DNA of 64,000 nucleotides, taken from NCBI RefSeq assembly GCF_000024405.1, contig NC_013517.1, forward strand, positions 2,666,001 through 2,730,000. Direction: 5' to 3'. Under the pieces are notes generated by a model. The model did no database searches and was not told the DNA's origin. It saw only the letters and a program-made list of their open reading frames with translations. Below, in pieces: positions 3,768-36,327 of the stretch (its first letter is position 1; every line of letters begins with the position of its first letter). A program made the translations under genes and the position numbers. Source of the DNA: Sebaldella termitidis ATCC 33386 (lineage in GTDB: Bacteria; Fusobacteriota; Fusobacteriia; Fusobacteriales; Leptotrichiaceae).

Positions 3768-4865
3768 ATGATAAATTTTCTTGATCTAAACAGGACAATT
3801 AACTTTTATGACAAAAAAATTATGAAATTCATTTTAGATAATAATGAATTCAAAAACCAAAAAATTTTTAACTGTTCCATTGTAAACCTAAAAAATAAAA
3901 CAAACTTATTTTCAAATGATGAAATCTTTAATATCTTAAATGATTTCAAAAATCTTAATATAAGCTATAATATCATAACTTCCAAATCAGAATATTTAGG
4001 AAGCTTTTCCATAATATCCTCTTACAAAGTCATTAATAATGAGAAAATAGAGCTTACTTTTTCCAATGATTTCATTAATACCTTTAATAATCAGCACTTT
4101 TTATCAGAGATCAATATAAATGTATTCTTTTCATTTTCTTCATTTTCATCAATACATTTATATAATTTTTTACTTAACAAACTTTCAGACTTCCCGTACA
4201 CCAAGATAGAAATAGACAAGCTTAAAGAAGTCCTGCATCTCAAAAACAGCTATAAAAGAATATATGATTTTGAAAAATATGTATTGCAGCCATCATTGAA
4301 TGAAATCAATAAAATTTCCCAAACCAAGTTTTTTTACAATAAAGTCAAGAAAAGCAATAAGAGAAATGCAAAAGTTACAGGCTTTGATTTCTTTTCACTT
4401 ACAGAAGCCAAATTTGAGAAGATAAATAATATTCTGAGATTTTTTGATACAGTGGATAATTATGATACACTTTTTAATCAAATCCTTTTCGGACTGAATT
4501 CCATATCATATGAAGAATTTTTGGAAGTAATCAGAAAAATGCTTTCGGAATATGAGAATGAACTCCAAGGGGCCAAAACTACTTTTGAAACCTATTTCAT
4601 TGAAAAAATGGAAGAAAATATATCAAAATACCAAAATCAATATACACTTATCACGAATATCACAAAAATTGATTCTTTTAATCAGTATAAATCATTAATA
4701 TTTGAGAACTCTTATGCATTAAATAATTCATTTTTATTTATGTGGAATGATATCTCCAGTATTTACAGAAACCAAAATTTTGAGTATGAGGATGATATTC
4801 TGAAAATTCAGGCGCAGTATTTTGATGACGGGGAAAAGAGCATAAAGATATTTAAGAAAAAATGA
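3768..4865 (+). CDS. Rep_3-family (RepB-type) initiator protein, chromosomal
   Basis: 365 residues from the ATG at 3768, preceded by AAAGGTGAT; the frame is open further upstream but lacks a better start. The central part has the typical Rep_3 winged-helix signature: a segment with LYNFLLNKL and a helix-turn-helix, then SYKRIYDFEKYVLQPSLNEI and KVTGFDFF. Family members bind iterons to start plasmid replication and usually repress their own promoters. Here the gene stands alone between a PTS operon and groES-groEL with no partition or mobilisation genes. It may be a plasmid relic or, as inferred from the divergent layout and repeated hexamers, a regulator of the PTS operon. Confidence 0.75.
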   Translation: MINFLDLNRTINFYDKKIMKFILDNNEFKNQKIFNCSIVNLKNKTNLFSNDEIFNILNDFKNLNISYNIITSKSEYLGSFSIISSYKVINNEKIELTFSNDFINTFNNQHFLSEININVFFSFSSFSSIHLYNFLLNKLSDFPYTKIEIDKLKEVLHLKNSYKRIYDFEKYVLQPSLNEINKISQTKFFYNKVKKSNKRNAKVTGFDFFSLTEAKFEKINNILRFFDTVDNYDTLFNQILFGLNSISYEEFLEVIRKMLSEYENELQGAKTTFETYFIEKMEENISKYQNQYTLITNITKIDSFNQYKSLIFENSYALNNSFLFMWNDISSIYRNQNFEYEDDILKIQAQYFDDGEKSIKIFKKK

Positions 4866-4893: not shown

Positions 4894-4896
4894 ATA

Positions 4897-6802
<1,906 letters not shown>

Positions 6803-25399: not shown

Positions 25400-25612
25400 T
25401 TAAAATGGAAAATCATCATCATTTATATCATTGTTATCAGAGCCCCCGGGTTCCCAGTTATGAGGTTCTGTAGCCTTGTCTGTTTTTGGCTTATTTGACT
25501 TTGGAAATTCCTTCTGATCTACCAGCACTTTTAATCTACTTCTCTTATTTCCCTCATGATCCACCCATTTATCCTTTTTTATTTTTCCACTTATCTCTAT
25601 TCCTTTTCCTTG
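25400..25612 (-). pseudogene. single-stranded DNA-binding protein, C-terminal remnant
   Basis: The frame reads GIEISGKIKKDKWVDHEGNK, then a linker rich in Lys, Pro and Asn, and ends in DDDFPF, the canonical acidic SSB tail that recruits replication partners. The first half of the OB-fold is missing; upstream sequence is dnaB in another frame. So an ssb gene has lost its 5' part by a deletion that also removed the 3' end of dnaB. Confidence 0.8.
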
Positions 25613-26678
25613 CCTGTTCTATTCCGCCAGAGTCTCTTAAATCTGATAATATTGGTCTTTTATCAGCTCGCTTTTCTACTTCTCTGCTTAGCTGAGCCAA
25701 TACTACTATGCATGTATTCAGTTCTTTTGATAATGCTTTTAATCTATTCGCCATATATTCAACTTCAAGATTCTTATTTGAAAACCCTCTGGCCTGCATC
25801 AAAGTTAAATAATCAATGACTATCAAATTTAAATTATTTTTTTCATGTACTCTTTTGATTCCCTGAATGATAGTATGAAAATTTGTATCTGAACAATCAA
25901 GGATACTCAAATTCAATTTTTCAAATTTCTCCAAGTTTTTTATTATTTCTTGTATCTCTGTATCTTCTATTTTTTTATGCTTAATTTTCCATAATGGTAC
26001 TCCAGACATACTTGCTAATATTCTATTAGTTATCTGCCTTGTACTCATTTCTAAGTTCACATACATAACATTATGATTTATTGAATTTTTATATGCCATA
26101 TTTAAACCTAAAGCTGTTTTCCCCATAGCTGGTCTGGCACCTATTGTAATTAAACTAGCTTTTTCAAAGAATATATATTTGTCTAATTCACTATAACCGG
26201 TTCTTATTCCATCCAGTTCTCTTCTCTCAAGATTTTCCCACCATTCGTTTATGAGTCCCCTCGGACTAAGGATTTTATTATTTTCTTGCTCAAATTCTCC
26301 TGCTTCTTCCAAAATTGAAAGTATTTGTTTTCTTTTTCCATCTGTATCAATACTATCAGCAACAAGTGCATCATTTATTTTTTTATCTAAATATAAGTTT
26401 TTATATTCTTCTCTCAGAGCTTTTATTGCCGTCGGCATATATACCACTTTATCCGATAGTTCACCAAGTTCTATTTGTTTATCAGACTTCAAATTTAAAA
26501 AACTTCGTTCTAATACTCCATGTTTTTCATATATATCCAGCATTTGTTTATATAAGCTTCTATTTTCCCTATTTATAAAATATTTTTCCTTCAGTCCGTT
26601 TTCAATAGCACTTTCCAGCATATTAGGAAATACTATCAATTTCCCTAGTATTGGCTTTTCATTCCTTAATTCCGCCAT
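25569..26678 (-). pseudogene. DnaB-type replicative helicase, C-terminus deleted
   Basis: Open for 369 codons with AGGAGG before the ATG. N-terminal DnaB domain, then the RecA-like core: GARPAMGKTALGLNM (Walker A), MYVNLEMS, IVIDYLTLM (Walker B) and ALSKELN...LAQLSREVEKR, up to DLRDSGGIEQ. The normal continuation of motif H4 and the last part of about 70 residues are absent; from about 25618 the sequence is ssb, read here in the wrong frame as a 10-14 residue tail. Probably inactive. Confidence 0.85.
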
Positions 26679-26754
26679 TTTTCCTCCTGCTTAAATGTAT
26701 TTTTCAAATCCTCGAGTGATATTTCTTTTGAATTTATAACTTCAACTTCTGATC

Positions 26755-27495
26755 CTATAACTGTTCTTTAAAATCACTGTAGTCTCCATTTAGTGTATTC
26801 TTTATCATTCTAAATCCATCATTAGGATTGAAAAAACTACCTATTCCAATTTTATTTTTCCAGTAGCTACTTTTACTAATTTGATCTATTGCATGAATAA
26901 CCTTACCTATACCAAACTTTTTTATTGCTTTATTAATTTCTTCTATAGGTGAATACTCAAAATTCTTTAGATTTTTTTCTTTCCATATGCTTTCTATTTC
27001 TTTAGTTTGAATATTTTCATTCTGAGAATGTCGTCGGTAGTCATATTTTTTTTCTTTATTACTATTATTCTTGTAATATTCATTACTTGTATTATTATTT
27101 ATTTCCTCCGTCTTTTCGTTGATAGGGGTATCAATATTTTTATTGACAGGCTCGCACTCTTTTGATTGATAGCTATCAATTTTTCCATTTATAGGGTTGC
27201 TTATTATATAAATTCTTCTCTCTATTACTTGTTTTGTTGTTTTTCCTTCTTTATCCTTAGCATATATCAATTTTGAATTTATATACCCTAATTTTTCTAA
27301 CTTATTTATCCAAGAACCTGCTGTATTTTTATGTACTTCATATAATTTAGCAAAATAAGAGTTTTGTGCATTGCAATATCCATTTTTAGTTGAAAGTGCT
27401 GTTAATTCCACATACAATATTTTCTCCATTGGTTTTAAGTTTTTATCATACCTCACACTTGCAGGTAATATTCCATAATAATTTGGATTTTCCAC
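26755..27495 (-). CDS. phage replication initiator (winged-helix), probable frameshift near its end
   Basis: About 246 residues from the GTG at 27495; AGGAG precedes it by eight bases. The N-terminal winged helix (YYGILPASVRYDKNLKPMEK, then YCNAQNSYFAKLYEVHKNTAGSW) is typical of replisome-organiser proteins of phages and plasmids of Firmicutes and Fusobacteria. A low-complexity Asn-rich linker follows, then a helical C-terminal domain. After its stop the neighbouring frame stays open and coding-like (EVEVINSKEISLEDLKN) to 26666, overlapping the dnaB start, which suggests a late frameshift. Confidence 0.7.
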   Translation of the reverse strand: MENPNYYGILPASVRYDKNLKPMEKILYVELTALSTKNGYCNAQNSYFAKLYEVHKNTAGSWINKLEKLGYINSKLIYAKDKEGKTTKQVIERRIYIISNPINGKIDSYQSKECEPVNKNIDTPINEKTEEINNNTSNEYYKNNSNKEKKYDYRRHSQNENIQTKEIESIWKEKNLKNFEYSPIEEINKAIKKFGIGKVIHAIDQISKSSYWKNKIGIGSFFNPNDGFRMIKNTLNGDYSDFKEQL

Positions 27496-27571
27496 TTCAA
27501 TCACTCCTACTTTATTTTTTCTTAATATAATGTTATAATTAATTATTGAATTTATGTAATATAATTTCTCT

Positions 27572-27595
27572 GACCTCTTCGGAGGTCTTTTTTTA
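27572..27595 (+). terminator. strong rightward terminator without an obvious gene
   Basis: GACCTC, loop TTCG, GAGGTC, then eight T. It stands between two divergent genes, so no rightward gene precedes it. A lost repressor gene or an antisense transcript over the initiator gene could explain it. Confidence 0.75.
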
Positions 27596-27686
27596 TTTTT
27601 CTAAAAAAATAGAATACGTTCTCCAATCCTCTTTCTTTTTTTGAAATTTTATGATATTCTTTAAATTAATAATTTGAGGTGATTTT

Positions 27687-28101
27687 TTGAAAAAATTTAT
27701 TTTATTTTTTATTTTTAGCATTTATCTTTTTCCATGTCGTATTTATTTTAATGTTGATTTTGAAATATCTCTCTCAAAATCTGCTTTAGAAAGAGAATAT
27801 CTTAAAAATTTAATTCTAGATAATAAATATAATGATATTCTAGAATCTTACAAAATTTTAAAAAACTCCAAAGGATTTGGCGATGATAATTATGACCTTT
27901 ATCTATACGTCTTGGTTAAAAATAAGCGACTAGATTTACTCGAATCTTTATTTTATAAATCTAAATCTAATGCAGGTAAAATATATGCTCTTCGTGGAAT
28001 TTTTGAACTTGATTCCATATGAAAATCTTGATATTACAAATATACCCTCTGATAAAATTGAAAACTGGCAGTTATATATAAAACAACACCTTCATACTTA
28101 A
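27687..28101 (+). pseudogene. secreted protein, frameshifted
   Basis: TTG start at 27687 with GAGGTG seven bases upstream. A signal-peptide-like start (KKFILFFIFSIYLFPC) is followed by a helical domain (YNDILESYKILKNS, then GKIYALRGIFELDS). The frame ends at 28022, but the next frame continues YENLDITNIPSDKIENWQLY to 28101. Exported, function unknown. It runs directly into the first ImmA-like copy. Confidence 0.55.
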
Positions 28102-28558
28102 TGGGATGGGAAGATGAAATTAGACTGAGAATTAAAAACCTGATCAAAAAATATAACACATCTGATCCTGCTATTTTATTAAAAAACTAGGTATTATAGT
28201 ACTATATGATGATTTAGGAGACTTAAAAGGATATTATAAACACCCACGAGGTAGAAAAGTAATAGTAGTCAACTCTTTACTCAGTAAATTTGCACAAATA
28301 ATAGTCCTTGCACATGAACTTGGACATGCTATTTTACATTCAGGTTCTACAGTGGCTTTAATGCATAGACATATATTGCAATATAGTAGCATAATGGAAA
28401 ATGAAGCTAATAAATTCGCTGCAGAATTATTATTGAATGGATATGATACAGATAATATTGAATACTCCTACTGTTACTGTGATGAGGTATCTAATGATGA
28501 AAATGACAGGGTCTTATTAGAAAGATTAAGAGAATTCAAGTTTAGTAATAAATATTAA
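28101..28558 (+). pseudogene. ImmA/IrrE-type metalloprotease, tandem copy 1 (frameshift)
   Basis: Codons from 28101 read WEDEIRLRIKNLIKKYNTSD, then a one-base loss near 28186 shifts the frame; the other frame then gives KLGIIVLYDDLG and the zinc-protease motif LAHELGHAIL, with NEANKFAAELLL further on as the third ligand region. ImmA-like proteases cut phage or element repressors to switch gene programmes. Copy 2 (29135-29568) is about 95 percent identical at the DNA level, judged by eye, but broken elsewhere. Confidence 0.75.
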
Positions 28559-28576
28559 AATACACAAGGAGGTAAC

Positions 28577-29125
28577 ATGAAGAAAATAATAATATTGCTA
28601 TTTTTATTAATTTTAATGAGTTGTAGCAAAGAATCCGGTTCACAAAAATCATTTGAAAACTTAATGTCAACATTTCAATCCGGCAATGAGGATCAAATAA
28701 TTAAAATTTCAGAAAGAAATTTTTCTGATAATCCATTTAATCAATATTTTTTTGAGGAAGCTCCGTTTTATCTTCAATCTTTCAAAAAGATAAAATATAA
28801 AATAATTGAAGTAAAAGAAGATAAAAATACCGCTACTATAAAATTTTTAATTGAAGCACCAAATTTATCTGAGTATAGTATTGAACCGTATCTAAAATTA
28901 TCAACGAGTCAATTAACATTTTCAGGTTATAATAAAAAAGAGATACTTTTTCAAGCAACTAATGCTGCTTACTCATCTATTTTAGCTAGAAACGACCTAA
29001 AATATATTAAAAAAGAGCTTTCTTTAAATATTGTGAAAAAAAGAGGCAAATGGGTTATAGATGAAAATAGTCCTGATTTTATAGAATTTGTTGCTGTTCT
29101 TATTGAGCGAAAAACATCTTTTTAA
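28577..29125 (+). CDS. NTF2-like lipoprotein, copy 1
   Basis: 182 residues with AAGGAGG before the ATG. The signal peptide ends in the lipobox LMSC (C16). The mature part, FENLMSTFQSGNEDQIIKIS and FKKIKYKIIEVKEDKNTATIKF, ending WVIDENSPDF, is the exported NTF2-like layout. It would be anchored to a membrane. Its partner at 29565 shares the signal peptide almost base for base but the mature region has diverged widely. Role unknown. Confidence 0.65.
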   Translation: MKKIIILLFLLILMSCSKESGSQKSFENLMSTFQSGNEDQIIKISERNFSDNPFNQYFFEEAPFYLQSFKKIKYKIIEVKEDKNTATIKFLIEAPNLSEYSIEPYLKLSTSQLTFSGYNKKEILFQATNAAYSSILARNDLKYIKKELSLNIVKKRGKWVIDENSPDFIEFVAVLIERKTSF

Positions 29126-29134
29126 AATTATTAC

Positions 29135-29568
29135 AGGTTAGATCAAAAAATATAACACATCTGATCCTGCTATATTATGTAAAAAACTAGGTATTATAGT
29201 ACTATATGATGATTTAGGATACTTAAAAGGATATTAAACACCCACAAGGTAGAAAAGTAATAGTGGTCAACTCTTTACTCAGCAAATTTGCACAAATAAT
29301 AGTCCTTGCACATGAACTTGGACATGCTATTTTATATTCAGGTTCTACAGTGGCTTTAATGCATAGACATATATTGCAATATAGTAACATAATGGAAAAT
29401 GAAGCTAATAAATTCGCTGCAGAATTATTATTGAATGGATATGATACAGATAATATTGAATACTACTACTGTTACTGTGATGAGGTATCTAATGATGAAA
29501 TATTGTTGGAAAGATTAAGAGAATTCAAGTTTAGTAATAAATATCAAATATACAAGGAGATAACATGA
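29135..29568 (+). pseudogene. ImmA/IrrE-type metalloprotease, tandem copy 2 (2-base deletion)
   Basis: Second copy. The N-terminal codons (KKYNTSDPAILCKKLGIIV) are in frame here, unlike copy 1, but loss of two bases at about 29235 gives a TAA; the following frame is open from 29263 and contains LAHELGHAIL. A small in-frame deletion near 29500 also separates it from copy 1. Its stop overlaps the next ATG (ATGA). No start codon or ribosome-binding site is seen upstream. Confidence 0.75.
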
Positions 29569-30630: not shown

Positions 30631-31666
30631 ATGCGTAACCCAAATGGATACGGATCCATTTTTAAATTATCTGGGAATCGGAGAAAGCCTTTTGCTGTTA
30701 GAATTACAAAAGGATATACCGATGAAGGAAAACAAATTTATAAATATTTAAGCTATCATAATACAAGAAGGGAGTCCATGCAAGCACTTGCAGCATACAA
30801 TACAACCCCATATAATGTTGATGAAAACAATGTTACTTTTGGTGAATTATATGAAAAATGGAAAGAAAGACATTTTAAAGATTTAAGTAAGAATTCTATC
30901 AAAGGATATGAGACAAGCTACAATCACTGCAAGTCCATCTTAAATCTAAAAATAAAAGATATAAAAGCAATACATATGCAGAATTTAATTGATAGTTTAG
31001 GTAAAAACCACGCTACTCTAAAAATTCTGAAAAGTTTATTAAATTTATTTTTCAAATATGCTATGGAAATGGATATTATCCAAAAAAGACTATAGTAAAT
31101 ATATAAAAATTGGCAAACATGTAGTCATTAAATAAAGAACTATATTCACAGATCACGAAATCGATTTATTGTGGGCTAATTTGCAAAATTTCAAATATGC
31201 CGTCCCAATCCTCATTATGATCTATACAGGCATGAGAATCAGCTAATTATTGACTCTGAGGAAGCAAGATATTGATTTAGTCGAGCAGACTATTACAATT
31301 AAAGAAAGTAAGACTATCGCTGGAAGAAATAGAATCATGCCAATACATCCAAGATTGAAAGATTTAATACAAAGTAGGTATGAATATTCCTGCATTGATA
31401 ATCTAGTTTCATCAACAACCTATAAAAAACCTTTAATCTATGTTAATTATTTAAATCGCTTATTTACACCTATTATGGAAACTCTTAATATGGATCATAC
31501 CCCTCATGATTGTAGACATACATTTGCGACAAGATTAAACGATACAGGTGGAAATTCCACAGCAATTAAGAAAATGATAGATCATGAATCTTTTGCTTTA
31601 ACTAAAAAAGTATACACTCATAAAAAAGTTGATGAATTGAGAAAAGCTTTGGAACTTGTAAATTAA
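30631..31666 (+). pseudogene. prophage integrase (tyrosine recombinase), broken
   Basis: The first 154 codons hold an N-terminal arm-binding segment (NPNGYGSIFKLSGNRRKPFA) and the SAM-like core-binding domain. A frameshift in an A run near 31085, then in-frame stops near 31130 and 31243, interrupt the catalytic domain; the remaining frame shows TGMRIS before the stop, HDCRHTFATRL and DHESFALTKKVYTH, so the RHRHY residues are largely kept. It marks the right end of the prophage. Three lesions make it inactive. Confidence 0.85.
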
Positions 31667-31823
31667 CATATTTTTTTAACTGGTTTTGTATACTGGTTAT
31701 ATATTACAGATTAATTTTATACAAATTTCAGAAAAATCATAGTCATTCAAAGTACTATTGATTGGCAGAAGTCAAAAAAATAATATAATTTTATATTATC
31801 AAAATAATAACAGGAGGCAGCAA

Positions 31824-33002
31824 ATGTTAAATTTTACTTATAATATTCCAACTAAAATAATATTTGGAAAAGATGAATTAGGAAGACTCCCGAAAGAAAT
31901 TCTTCTTCACGGGAACAGAGTTTTATTTTTATATGGAAAAAATAGTATAAAAAAGACCGGACTATATGATAAAGTTGTTTCACTTTTAAATGATAAAGGC
32001 ATATTCTTTAAGGAGCTCTCAGGCGTAAAGCCTAATCCTGACATATCCAGCGTAAGAGAAGGAATTAAAATAATAAAGGAAAATAACCTTAATTTTATAC
32101 TCGCTGTGGGAGGAGGCAGCACTATTGACTGTGCTAAGGCTGTTTCAGCCGGCGCGAATTATACAGGAGACCCATGGGACTTTCTTCTTGGCAAAGCAAA
32201 GGTGAAAAATGTACTCCCTATAGGCTCTATATTGACGCTTGCCGCTACAGGCTCTGAAATGAACGGCGGCTCTGTTATTTCAAATGAAAAGACACAGGAA
32301 AAACTGGCTTTTGGTCATCCGCTTCTTGTACCGGTCTTTACATTTGAAGATCCTACACTTACATTTAGTGTCTCAAAATACCAGACTGCTGCCGGTGCTA
32401 CTGACATAGTCAGTCATCTTCTGGAACAATATTTTTCATCCCATAATGATGACGGACTTCCTGACAGACTTACCGAGGCAATGATGATAAATGTTATTAA
32501 TTATGCAAAAAAAGCTGTCTTAGAACCGGATAATTATGAAGCCAGAGCAAACCTTATGTGGACAAGCTCTCTTGCTCTGAATAATCTGGTTACATATGGA
32601 AAAAAACACGGGGACTGGGCTTCACACGGGATTGAACATGAAGTAAGTGCTATTTATGATATTACTCATGGTGCCGGACTTGCCATACTTTTCCCGAATG
32701 TTCTGAAATATTATCTGAATAAAGACATCGCTGAATCTCTTCCGCTTACAAAATTCCTGAATCTGGGGAAAAATGTATTCGGCATATCCAATGATGATGA
32801 AAAAGCAGCGGCTTTGAAAACTATTGAAAAAATAAGGGATTTCTTTGATACACTGGACATGCCGTCAAAGCTTTCCGATGAAAATGTGGATGATTCCAAA
32901 ATTGATGTCATGGCCAAAGGTGCTGCCAGAAAAGGAACACTCGGCTACTATCATATGCTTGAAGAAAGAGATATTTTTGAAATACTTAAAAAATCTGTAT
33001 AA
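31824..33002 (+). CDS. iron-containing alcohol dehydrogenase (YqhD/BdhA type)
   Basis: 392 residues from the ATG at 31824 (GGAGG upstream). Type III alcohol dehydrogenase features: GGGSTIDCAKA for the nucleotide, and metal ligands in ATDIVSHLLEQ, HGIEHEVSAIYDITHGAGLA. The YqhD/butanol dehydrogenase group reduces aldehydes with NADPH at the end of fermentation. It stands alone with its own terminator, outside the prophage, and the frame is intact. Confidence 0.9.
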   Translation: MLNFTYNIPTKIIFGKDELGRLPKEILLHGNRVLFLYGKNSIKKTGLYDKVVSLLNDKGIFFKELSGVKPNPDISSVREGIKIIKENNLNFILAVGGGSTIDCAKAVSAGANYTGDPWDFLLGKAKVKNVLPIGSILTLAATGSEMNGGSVISNEKTQEKLAFGHPLLVPVFTFEDPTLTFSVSKYQTAAGATDIVSHLLEQYFSSHNDDGLPDRLTEAMMINVINYAKKAVLEPDNYEARANLMWTSSLALNNLVTYGKKHGDWASHGIEHEVSAIYDITHGAGLAILFPNVLKYYLNKDIAESLPLTKFLNLGKNVFGISNDDEKAAALKTIEKIRDFFDTLDMPSKLSDENVDDSKIDVMAKGAARKGTLGYYHMLEERDIFEILKKSV

Positions 33003-33169: not shown

Positions 33170-33961
33170 TTATATTATATCCTCCAGCATCTCCTGAAAT
33201 TGTCTCTTATTCAGACTTGTATATATTCTGGTGGTTTCCAGTGAGGAATGTCCCAGTATATCTGCAAGTGCAGCAATATTATTATTCTTTTTCAAAAACT
33301 GAACAGCAAATAAGTGCCTGAAAGCATGTGCATGTACCTTGCTCTTTTTCAAACCGCCGCGTGCATTGGCTGCACTTTGTTTCAGTGAATTATGTATGTA
33401 TATCCTGCTTACTTCGATTATGCTTCCGCTTTTTATATTTCTTTCTCCGCAGTATTTTTTCAATATATTTATCAAATTTTTTGAAAGAATTATAATTCTG
33501 ATTTTTCCTTTATTCTCTATTTCCACTATACCTGTTTTCAGATTTTCTACATGAATATACTTGAGTTCGGATACTCTTATTCCAGTATGAGCCAGAACCA
33601 CCATAGTAATCCTGATTTTCTCGTTAATAGCAAATTTCAGAAGTCTTTTATACTCCCTTTCCGTAAGAAAGTCATCTTTAATACTCATTCTGTGCACTTT
33701 CTCTGCTTTTAATCTTACATCTATACCCAGACTCTTAAAAAAATTATTTAAAGTAGTTACTTTTCTGTTTATTGTACTCACTTTATAATTGTTTTTCAGA
33801 TATTTTCTGTAATTATGAATCTCTTTTGGAATAATCTCCAGATTTTTTTCAGGAAGAAATTCCAAAAACTTTTTTATATCCGCCATATATGCGTTAATTG
33901 TAGTCTGCGAAAAAAATTTCATCTGAAGAGTATTTTTATATTCTTCTATAATTTTATCCAT
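33170..33961 (-). CDS. stand-alone tyrosine recombinase (XerD/Mpi-like)
   Basis: 263 residues from the ATG at 33961 (a TTG 15 bases earlier is possible). N-terminal SAM-like domain to about residue 90, then the catalytic domain with R129 (HTGIRVSEL), H212 and R215 (HAFRH), H238 (LGHSS) and the nucleophile Y247 (TRIYT), so all active residues are present. It lacks arm-binding extensions. Its start lies about 220 bases from two inverted 29-bp palindromes, so a role as a DNA invertase on that switch is more likely than chromosome dimer resolution. Confidence 0.85.
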   Translation of the reverse strand: MDKIIEEYKNTLQMKFFSQTTINAYMADIKKFLEFLPEKNLEIIPKEIHNYRKYLKNNYKVSTINRKVTTLNNFFKSLGIDVRLKAEKVHRMSIKDDFLTEREYKRLLKFAINEKIRITMVVLAHTGIRVSELKYIHVENLKTGIVEIENKGKIRIIILSKNLINILKKYCGERNIKSGSIIEVSRIYIHNSLKQSAANARGGLKKSKVHAHAFRHLFAVQFLKKNNNIAALADILGHSSLETTRIYTSLNKRQFQEMLEDII

Positions 33962-34009
33962 AAATATTTTCCCCAATGTGTTATCTTCATAATTAAAGTT
34001 ATTTATTAA

Positions 34010-34184
34010 TTTGTTTTATTTATTTCGAAAAACTTTATAACTGTAAAAAGTATTTCAAATAATTTATTTTCAAATATTACAGAAGCTTTTTTCCTTTATT
34101 TTGCAGAAAAAAAAAATTTTGTATCAATTTATTAATAGCTTCTCTAAACCCTTATTTTTTGATTATAACACAAAACTACAAAAT
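34010..34184. other. leader between recombinase and left inverted repeat
   Basis: AT-rich DNA with poly-A and poly-T runs, no gene. It would be the untranslated leader of the recombinase transcript if the promoter inside the invertible segment is used. Confidence 0.4.
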
Positions 34185-34213
34185 AGTTAACATAATTATA
34201 TATTATGTTAACT
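34185..34213 (+). repeat. left recombination site (palindromic, 12-5-12)
   Basis: A 12-base arm AGTTAACATAAT and its exact reverse complement flank the asymmetric core TATAT (34197-34201). The arm-core-arm layout and size are those of tyrosine-recombinase crossover sites. The core orientation is opposite to that in the site at 34421. Confidence 0.7.
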
Positions 34214-34420
34214 TATTTAAATAAAAAATAAAAAGCCCTAATTTTTTAAGAAAAATATTTTTAGCTTATCAACTATACTTTTTAATCTTTTTACAATTAT
34301 ACTCATTTTTTGTTTTATAAACTTTTCTTTAAAATATCAATCTTTAAATCAAAACTTTTTATATATACGATATTGTATAATTTTATCATTTAGTTTGTCA
34401 AGTATTAATTCTATTAGGTA
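34214..34420. other. putative invertible segment, 207 bp
   Basis: DNA bounded by two oppositely oriented crossover-like sites. It has no coding capacity but contains a near-consensus promoter pointing left. Recombination between the sites would flip it and turn that promoter to the right. Confidence 0.6.
34372..34401 (-). promoter_or_regulatory. promoter inside the invertible segment
   Basis: On the minus strand a perfect TTGACA (34396-34401) and TACAAT (34372-34377, 18-base spacing) or TATACA (16-base spacing). In this orientation it reads toward the recombinase gene. Confidence 0.65.
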
Positions 34421-34449
34421 AGTTAACATAATATATAATTATGTTAACT
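34421..34449 (-). repeat. right recombination site (palindromic, 12-5-12)
   Basis: Same 12-base arms as the left site, with core ATATA (34433-34437), the reverse complement of TATAT. So the whole 29 bases are the exact reverse complement of 34185-34213. Confidence 0.7.
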
Positions 34450-35092
34450 AAAAAATTTGAGAAAGGAGTATCTTGAAACAAAAGTTTTGATTTTAACTAC
34501 CTTCCAATGAAAATGTAACAGCGTATAACGGATTATATTAAGTGCAAAAAGCAGTCTGCATAAATTAATAAGTATTATATTTAGCAGCTAGACCACATCT
34601 TTTGTATTATACTATAAATAGAATATTCATGTAATAATATACCCCGTGAAAATATATAAATTTACATTTTTTACTTTAGTACATTTTAAAACCATATGCT
34701 TATACAGAGATTTTTTCAAAACCGGAGAATTATCCAGACTGTTTACTGTAATCTGTTATAATTTTTTTTGAAATACTCGTCACAGTATTATTTATTAAAG
34801 TAACTAGTATATTAAACATTGTAGTGGAATAAGAGTTTTGGAAATAATATTTTTTAATTTTGATAAGTTATAACCCCGCATATACCTCAAAATTTCATGA
34901 TAATATATAATTATAAAACCACCGCTTGCAAGAAACTTTAAATAAATAAAAACAGATGTATTTGAATTATCGGGGTCAAATTTTCTAAATAGTATAATCG
35001 CAAAATCAAATTTTAAGATCAGCACAGATGGTTTTTGAAATAAATCATATATGGTTTAAAAATCTTTCTTAAAGTGAAATAACAGTACAAAA
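34450..35092. other. region right of the switch, decayed or non-coding
   Basis: About 640 bases. A good ribosome-binding site (GAAAGGAG near 34461) is followed by TTG AAA CAA AAG TTT and then a stop, so the gene that the switch might have driven is not intact. A 73-codon leftward frame at 34804-35025 has no ribosome-binding site and is not accepted. No other repeat or RNA recognised. Confidence 0.45.
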
Positions 35093-35142: not shown

Positions 35143-36327
35143 TTATAAAAATTTTTCTTCAATAGTTTTCCATATCTCTTTCGAGACCTTCTTTTTTTCC
35201 ATTTTTTCAAAATCTGTTTCAAAATCTTTTCCCAATAAAGTAATTGTATTATCATCAGTTCCGAAATTATCGACAGAATTTACTACAATCATATCAAGAT
35301 TTTTTTTCTGGAGCTTTTCTTTTGCATTTTCAATTAAATTTTCACTTTCAGCAGCAAAGCCCACCAGAATTTTATCCTTTTTTATTTTTCCTAATTCCAG
35401 AAGAATATCTTTATTTCTTATAAAATTAACTGTTAACATATCACCTTTTTTTATCTTTTTATCTGCAGTATATTCAGGTCTGTAATCGGCTACTGCTGCT
35501 GCTGCAATGATAATATCCTGCTCCGCCTCATATTTCATCACTTCTCCGTACATTTCCTCCGCTGTTCTTACCTCTACTATATTTACCCGGTCAGGCTTGT
35601 CTATATTTGTCGGTCCGCTCACAATTGTAACATCAGCTCCCAGCTTTTCAGCTTCTTCACCGAGAGAATATCCCATTTTTCCTGTAGATCTGTTTGAAAA
35701 ATATCTTATAGGGTCTAACGGCTCCTCAGTTCTTCCCGCTGTTATCAATACCTTTTTCCCTGCCAAAGGCTTATCTGTACTGATTTTTTCAGTTTCTTCC
35801 AGTTCTTTTGAAATTATCTTTATAATCTCCTGCTCGTTTTTCAATCTTCCTTTAGCATTTACATTACAAGCCAGAAGTCCTTCATCTGCTTCTATAAATT
35901 TATAACCGTATTTTTTTAATTTTTTTATATTTTCAGCCAAGATTGGATTTTCATACATTCTTACATTCATTGCCAGTGCAAAATAAACAGTTTTATTAAA
36001 TGCTGAAATTACAGTGGAAAGCATATCATCTGCTATACCTCCGGCTACCTTTCCCACTATATTATATGTAGCTGGTGCTACCAGTATAATATCAGCCCAG
36101 TCAGCAAGAGCAATATGTTCCACATTCACATTAAAATTTCTTTCCCACATATCCACTGCTACATCATGCTTTGATAACGATTCGAATGCTAGCGGCGTTA
36201 TTATTTTAGCTGCATTTTCAGTCATCACTACTTTTACGTCATATCCCCTTTTTCTCAAGCCTGATACTATATTCGCAGCCTTATATGCTGCAATACCTCC
36301 GCTTACCCCGATTAAGATATTTTTCAT
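35143..36327 (-). CDS. coaBC: bifunctional phosphopantothenoylcysteine decarboxylase / phosphopantothenate-cysteine ligase
   Basis: 394 residues, normal for CoaBC (Dfp). The N-terminal flavoprotein half has GVSGGIAAYKA, the catalytic histidine H71 (VEHIALADWAD), ALAMNVRMYENP and C154 (LLACN). The C-terminal ligase half has AGRTEEPLDPIRYFSNRSTGKMG-type motifs in parts and later GFAAES. It makes 4'-phosphopantetheine for coenzyme A. It is near the pantothenate uptake genes on the opposite strand, which suggests a CoA-supply locus. Confidence 0.95.
   Translation of the reverse strand: MKNILIGVSGGIAAYKAANIVSGLRKRGYDVKVVMTENAAKIITPLAFESLSKHDVAVDMWERNFNVNVEHIALADWADIILVAPATYNIVGKVAGGIADDMLSTVISAFNKTVYFALAMNVRMYENPILAENIKKLKKYGYKFIEADEGLLACNVNAKGRLKNEQEIIKIISKELEETEKISTDKPLAGKKVLITAGRTEEPLDPIRYFSNRSTGKMGYSLGEEAEKLGADVTIVSGPTNIDKPDRVNIVEVRTAEEMYGEVMKYEAEQDIIIAAAAVADYRPEYTADKKIKKGDMLTVNFIRNKDILLELGKIKKDKILVGFAAESENLIENAKEKLQKKNLDMIVVNSVDNFGTDDNTITLLGKDFETDFEKMEKKKVSKEIWKTIEEKFL

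Follow-up and report, generated by a model that had tools for sequence, protein, structure and literature searches.

A conserved pair of inverted 29-bp sites and an adjacent tyrosine recombinase gene form a probable inversion cassette with a self-facing promoter in Sebaldella

Among described systems, the closest in layout to the locus reported here are the invertons, such as Bacteroides Tsr19/BF2766 and the Clostridia inverton group 139 with invertase group 35, which likewise have a lone tyrosine recombinase gene next to a short intergenic promoter segment bounded by inverted sites. In gut invertons, according to a survey, the position of a nearby invertase gene does not generally allow the inverton to regulate it, group 145 being a possible exception (PMC11892184). 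The tyrosine invertases that shuffle hsdS genes invert coding parts of hsdS instead, and one of them, PsrA, inverts DNA in vitro (PMC7096588). XerCD/dif draws on the same enzyme superfamily, pairing housekeeping XerC and XerD with a single 28-bp 11-6-11 site; dif has been described as a 28-nt motif (PMC2731167). Mpi of Bacteroides fragilis inverts promoters too, but is a serine recombinase (PMC4747536), unrelated to an enzyme with a Phage_integrase domain such as the one described below.

We analysed a 64-kb stretch of the Sebaldella termitidis chromosome (bases 2,666,001-2,730,000; hereafter the window) from a genome of 4,486,650 bases in three contigs, among them the 4.42-Mb chromosome and a 13,648-base plasmid-sized replicon, C3. 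The locus is bounded by genes at 31758-33002 (plus strand) and 35143-36327 (minus strand), which we take to be an iron-type alcohol dehydrogenase gene and coaBC, respectively. Between them lie a tyrosine recombinase gene and two inverted sites around a short intergenic segment with a predicted promoter inside it (Table 1), which is the arrangement of an inverton. It departs from the described invertons in that the promoter faces its own recombinase rather than a surface gene, with no target gene on the other side, and in that the sites are 5′ of the recombinase gene, with a 7-bp rather than a 6-bp Xer-style spacer, and overlap the predicted promoter of that gene. Since nearby invertases in the gut survey are mostly not read from invertons (PMC11892184), this self-facing layout is unusual.

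Table 1. Coordinates of the features discussed (window positions, or positions under the locus label given).
Feature	Position	Strand	Remarks
Tyrosine recombinase gene, 263 aa	33170..33961	-	ATG start 33961; Pfam Phage_integrase 2.7e-20 and SAM-like N-terminal domain
Recombinase's own promoter (predicted)	34162..34190	-	-35 TTAACT (34185-34190), 17-bp spacer, extended -10 TGTTATAAT
Proximal recombination site (predicted)	34185..34213	.	12-5-12 (11-7-11 in Xer terms); AGTTAACATAAT-TATAT-ATTATGTTAACT; 100% identical in G089
Segment predicted to invert, 207 bp	34214..34420	.	87% identical to G089, no indel, same orientation
Predicted long-range hairpin of internal transcript, then T-tract	34222..34362	-	z -1.0 and -2.0; 38 pairs kept in both species
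22-codon open frame inside segment	34238..34306	-	In both species; substitutions 3/3/1 on codon positions 1/2/3; no Pfam match
17-bp repeat AAAAGTTTTGATTT, inner copy	34343..34359	-	Just downstream of internal promoter start; 15 bp exact in G089
Internal promoter TTGACA-18-TACAAT (predicted)	34372..34401	-	11/12 consensus; same hexamers and spacing in G089; 96% over 45 bp
Distal recombination site (predicted)	34421..34449	.	AGTTAACATAAT-ATATA-ATTATGTTAACT; 90% identical in G089
Conserved non-coding right flank	34450..34550	+	86% identity to G089 over 101 bp; AAAGGAG; TTG-4 codons-TGA
17-bp repeat AAAAGTTTTGATTT, outer copy	34480..34496	+	31 bp right of distal site
Monoglobus pair (L041)	4832-4853 / 5106-5127		Downstream: small hypothetical proteins
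Subdoligranulum pair (L042)	4823-4842 / 5085-5104		Downstream: large repetitive surface-type protein
Subdoligranulum pair (L048)	5812-5837 / 6098-6123		Third related copy 6046; downstream: exopolysaccharide-type operon
Pusillibacter pair (L043)	4830-4855 / 5124-5149		Downstream: S-layer homology protein

The two 29-bp sites are exact reverse complements of one another; each has perfect 12-bp arms, and the 5-bp cores are in opposite orientation, as the first-pass annotation of this DNA had pointed out. The longest exact inverted repeat within 1 kb has a length of 32 in the real window, against 13-16 in 20 dinucleotide-preserving shuffles of it; when the local AT-rich stretch was shuffled 500 times, the length never exceeded 16. 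A search of the 4.49-Mb genome allowing up to three mismatches in the 24 arm bases returned no further copy, which leaves the earlier suggestion of arm copies serving other promoters in trans unsupported; one candidate trans target, C1:2441937 (77% match), was rejected because it shares a similar promoter only and lacks a site. Fifteen bases at 34900-34914, ATAATATATAATTAT, equal the centre of the 29-bp site with differing outer arm bases; they sit in a conserved right-flank stretch and are present in a second species of the genus (G089) too.

The recombinase has the complete catalytic set of its class, R (TGIR), K (NKGK), HxxR (HAFR), H (LGHS) and Y (RIYT), within a PF00589 domain, and these residues are conserved across five aligned members (the window enzyme and four relatives); dN/dS for the gene is 0.08-0.09. 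It is related to XerA-type proteins, its nearest solved structures being XerA and an archaeal XerC-like protein, and it scores far below the curated XerC, XerD and XerA model cut-offs. The earlier description of an intact XerD/Mpi-like recombinase thus holds for an intact Xer-type tyrosine recombinase; we dropped the likeness to Mpi because that enzyme is a serine recombinase, and Tsr19-like tyrosine invertases are the right comparison. Because a relative begins at the same ATG, the start is more likely this codon than the TTG at 33976; it lies 224 bp from the proximal site, close to the 220 bases first estimated.

In a tree of 23 proteins the window recombinase falls in a supported clade (100/97) with recombinases from Clostridia plasmids, and the branching order inside this clade lacks resolution; the two other Xer-like proteins of the host genome fall outside it. 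Closest by sequence are plasmid recombinases. One is a 47% paralogue on C3 (13.6 kb), with a single detectable site upstream that matches 19 of 24 arm bases, the best match on that plasmid and a score reached by none of 100 first-order simulated sequences. The other, from another genus (G067), is 77% identical and lies on a 15-kb contig which, since it carries ParA, a weak RepA-type initiator match and a ParE-type toxin gene, is probably a plasmid. Both share a site-overlapping promoter and a leader of about 200-250 nt with the window gene; they differ in that C3 has one site and the G067 contig starts inside its own, an exact 12-bp half-site, ATTATGTTAACT, being visible upstream of the recombinase gene. 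We considered that contig end as a sign of mixed orientations and dropped the idea, as an assembler should keep the whole site.

In four members of the clade the recombinase gene is immediately followed by an inverted repeat pair (Table 1), in neighbourhoods whose gene content appears typical of invertons, and the clostridial recombinases that we found beside surface or exopolysaccharide genes belong to this clade. Half-sites identical to or one base off AACATAAT/ATTATGTT, the window's inner half-site, occur in three of the four; the L043 sequence differs. The hsdS-shuffling invertases, including PsrA, form the sister group (union 98/97) at about 32% identity to the window enzyme; there is no hsdS frame between 31758 and 36327, and the inverted repeats here are thus not inside hsdS as they are in those systems. 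Peptoclostridium litorale (L022) has, shortly upstream of a distant recombinase, a perfect palindrome at 4896-4923 in which AACATAAT/ATTATGTT half-sites enclose a 6-bp Xer-style spacer. Single TTAACATAAT-N5-ATTATGTTAA palindromes, possibly dif-like attachment sites, occur on viral contigs (L065-L070); these 25-bp palindromes number one per contig, and no related recombinase was found in the stretches examined.

Conservation in G089 extends over the whole cassette. Its recombinase is 84-85% identical, the order coaBC, cassette, recombinase, alcohol dehydrogenase is kept with the cassette in identical orientation, and both sites, their opposed cores, the promoter and the entire 207-bp segment are present; changes in the distal site are confined to the outermost arm bases. 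Over the recombinase, dS between the two species is 0.91 (dN/dS 0.086), with synonymous sites near saturation, and yet the segment aligns without indels, which argues that the whole cassette is held by selection. Another genome of the genus (G090) encodes a 95% identical recombinase, cut by a contig start. In a third species (G088, coaBC 69% identical) only 121 bp separate the flanking genes; the locus is therefore absent there. A broad DNA search over the phylum returned mostly AT-rich noise below the G089 match. We found no inverted allele: the comparison covers the two complete copies (window and G089), since the contigs of G067 and G090 stop short of the segment or at its edge, and for two copies a shared orientation has a chance of 1/2.

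The promoter inside the segment, noted earlier as near-consensus and leftward, proved to have its TACAAT 18 bp downstream of TTGACA (34396-34401, minus strand), pointing toward the recombinase. Promoter-like matches in the region number 14 against 11.5 in shuffles, as expected from shuffles, so that the case for this one rests on its strength and conservation. The predicted transcript from it can fold end to end, with one compensatory change (A-U to G-C), and a U-tract follows the fold just short of the proximal site. This AU-rich fold outscores shuffles by little (Table 1), and a terminator scan of the locus did not call it. It may thus act as a weak terminator or a short structured RNA, or as neither of them, and on this pattern the internal transcript may end inside the segment, before the recombinase gene. 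A coding role for the 22-codon frame within the segment was rejected, as its substitution pattern is opposite to that of coding sequence. The AAAAGTTTTGATTT repeat (15-17 bp) has its two copies in opposite orientation in both species, and these are the only two in the 64-kb window. An Rfam search gave nothing more than two sub-threshold animal microRNA matches, and a plasmid DNA search with the segment as query gave no match.

The recombinase gene also appears to have a promoter of its own, which ranks among the best sites in promoter scans of both genomes, this one and G089, lies in a stretch (34150-34184) that is 97% conserved, and has its -35 TTAACT in the proximal site, within the outer arm. 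The same arrangement recurs in four loci (window, G089, G067 and plasmid C3): G067 has TATACT, with TG in front of it, 17 bp after the arm (TTAACT-17-TATACT), and upstream of the C3 paralogue a 17-bp spacer separates TTGACA, at the end of the arm, from TACAAT. Leaders are long in all four genes, at about 190-250 nt. A recombinase occupying the site would cover the -35 box; the four aligned loci therefore predict that the site-bound enzyme should repress its own gene. A motif, GAAATACTTTTT, occurs in the leaders of all four compared recombinase genes about 90-160 nt before the start codon (window 34045-34056; L014 2990-3001; also L028 and L029).

To the right of the distal site we found a conserved stretch and no gene. 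Identity to G089 is 86% over the first 100 bp and then falls to 53% and 61%, with a neighbouring non-coding baseline of 53-61%. The ribosome-binding site that the first-pass annotation had placed ahead of a broken or missing gene is there as a Shine-Dalgarno-like AAAGGAG (34462-34468), but what follows it is only TTG, four codons and TGA. No open frame of note occurs on this side in either species, nor are frames conserved between them; a pseudogene search gave no Pfam match and a single marginal PHROGs match (E 0.085), and a 23-aa minus-strand stretch 83% identical to G089 was discarded, having no start and losing its frame. As the side is non-coding in both species, a recent decay of a target there is unsupported. 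Three of four folds of the flank gave a z near 0 for structured RNA, and coaBC, beyond the flank, is convergent. Leftward from the segment, the gene that could be read is that of the recombinase, possibly behind a terminator, while none readable rightward from an inverted segment was found in either species. New at this locus are the recombinase's predicted own promoter with its -35 in the proximal-site arm, the weak conserved hairpin with T-tract in which the internal transcript may end, and the absence of coding sequence on the right in both species.

We suggest the following mechanism. The Xer-type recombinase would bind the 11/12-bp half-sites of both 29-bp sites and align them as an inverted pair, with core TATAT facing ATATA, so that the 207-bp segment is inverted; inverted cores, kept in both species, are what inversion rather than deletion requires. 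In the present orientation the strong predicted promoter would transcribe toward the recombinase gene, where it would either read through and boost the enzyme or yield a short structured RNA; after inversion its transcription would be directed at the right flank, which is conserved and non-coding. Site-bound recombinase would meanwhile repress its own gene through the -35 in the proximal site. That both sites belong to the adjacent recombinase we regard as very probable, and the segment quite probably inverts in living cells. Because the promoter faces the recombinase now and would face non-coding DNA if inverted, the main effect would fall on the recombinase locus, and we think it likely that this is a site-specific inversion cassette, run by the adjacent recombinase, with its own locus as primary target. 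For self-regulation as the main effect the balance is even, and a second output, as RNA or in trans, is possible. The earlier idea that the switch might control its own recombinase survives in that the promoter points at the gene; the picture is more complex, since the gene has a conserved predicted promoter of its own that overlaps the proximal site, and the internal transcript may terminate within the segment. That possible termination, the single orientation of both complete copies and the unusualness of a self-facing layout among surveyed gut invertons count against the inversion-cassette reading. A more radical version we offer tentatively and consider doubtful: a stand-alone, self-referential cassette, with its own promoter built into one of its two sites, an invertible promoter facing itself and an orientation-dependent feedback memory, whose sole other product would be a short structured RNA and which would have no conventional phase-variable gene.

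The first-pass annotation had called the locus a phase-variation promoter switch. What stands is a recombinase-linked invertible promoter cassette, as judged by the catalytic residues, the conservation in a second species and the relatives beside paired sites; the target gene on the right does not. We consider it unlikely that a classical switch, with a past or present target on that side and only incidental control of the recombinase, explains the locus: the relatives do adjoin inverted pairs that precede genes for S-layer or large surface proteins or for exopolysaccharide, and the AAAGGAG and the first 100 bp of the flank are conserved, but the pairs lie 3′ of those recombinase genes and 5′ here, the right side has the frameless, convergent setting described above, and a target lost before the species split would leave the constraint on the whole segment unexplained. 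Rather unlikely, too, is a role of the sites as operators or relics, with a recombinase that only autoregulates, or a plasmid-derived multimer-resolution enzyme, and inversion rare or never occurring. The -35 within the proximal site in all four loci speaks for it, as do the shared orientation in both species and the plasmid paralogue, whose one detectable site fits autoregulation and plasmid resolution; against it, the distal site is kept with its opposite core in both species, over a neutral baseline of about 55-60% identity, and an operator 236 bp away would need no oppositely oriented core.

The sites could alternatively be dif-like targets of the host XerC/XerD, serving chromosome dimer resolution or marking an XerCD-integrated element. 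Their half-site TTATGTTAACT resembles the XerD arm of dif, and there are two more Xer-like recombinase genes in the genome. We nevertheless judge this improbable: the sites differ from dif in length, copy number, orientation, phyletic pattern and recombinase class, being 29 bp with a 7-bp rather than a 6-bp spacer and with arms alike, present as two inverted copies rather than one, absent from a genome of the same genus (G088), and accompanied by a dedicated recombinase far below the XerC/XerD cut-offs; no convincing match to a classical dif of the Gram-positive-type pattern was found in this genome. Each site is by itself a 12-bp hairpin, but that the palindromes are merely terminators or chance features of AT-rich DNA is next to inconceivable, as no T-run follows them, the terminator scan does not call them, shuffles stay at 16 bp or below, and they are conserved and unique in the genome. 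Overall we see here an inversion cassette of a known kind, conserved and probably functional, whose self-facing layout is unusual.

If the segment inverts, Fusobacteriota would have here a compact, conserved switch whose flipping sets the level of the flipping enzyme, and site-embedded negative feedback combined with an orientation-dependent promoter would, if true, show how an invertase limits its own activity. The relatives suggest how a chromosomal inversion switch with two sites could have arisen from a plasmid recombinase whose promoter contains a single site. Among the papers searched, the one that mentions Sebaldella together with inversion concerns bacterial microcompartments.

To the left of the alcohol dehydrogenase gene, the window holds an integrase gene at 30631-31666, split into two frames, a SAM-like N-terminal part and a Phage_integrase part, with one TAA inside. 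Near it are genes for a DnaB-like helicase, an HTH_36 protein and an IrrE-like peptidase (25569-29568), and we read this neighbourhood as the remnant of an integrated element. The alcohol dehydrogenase gene of G089 and G090 instead has groES/groEL at a distance of no more than about 2 kb.
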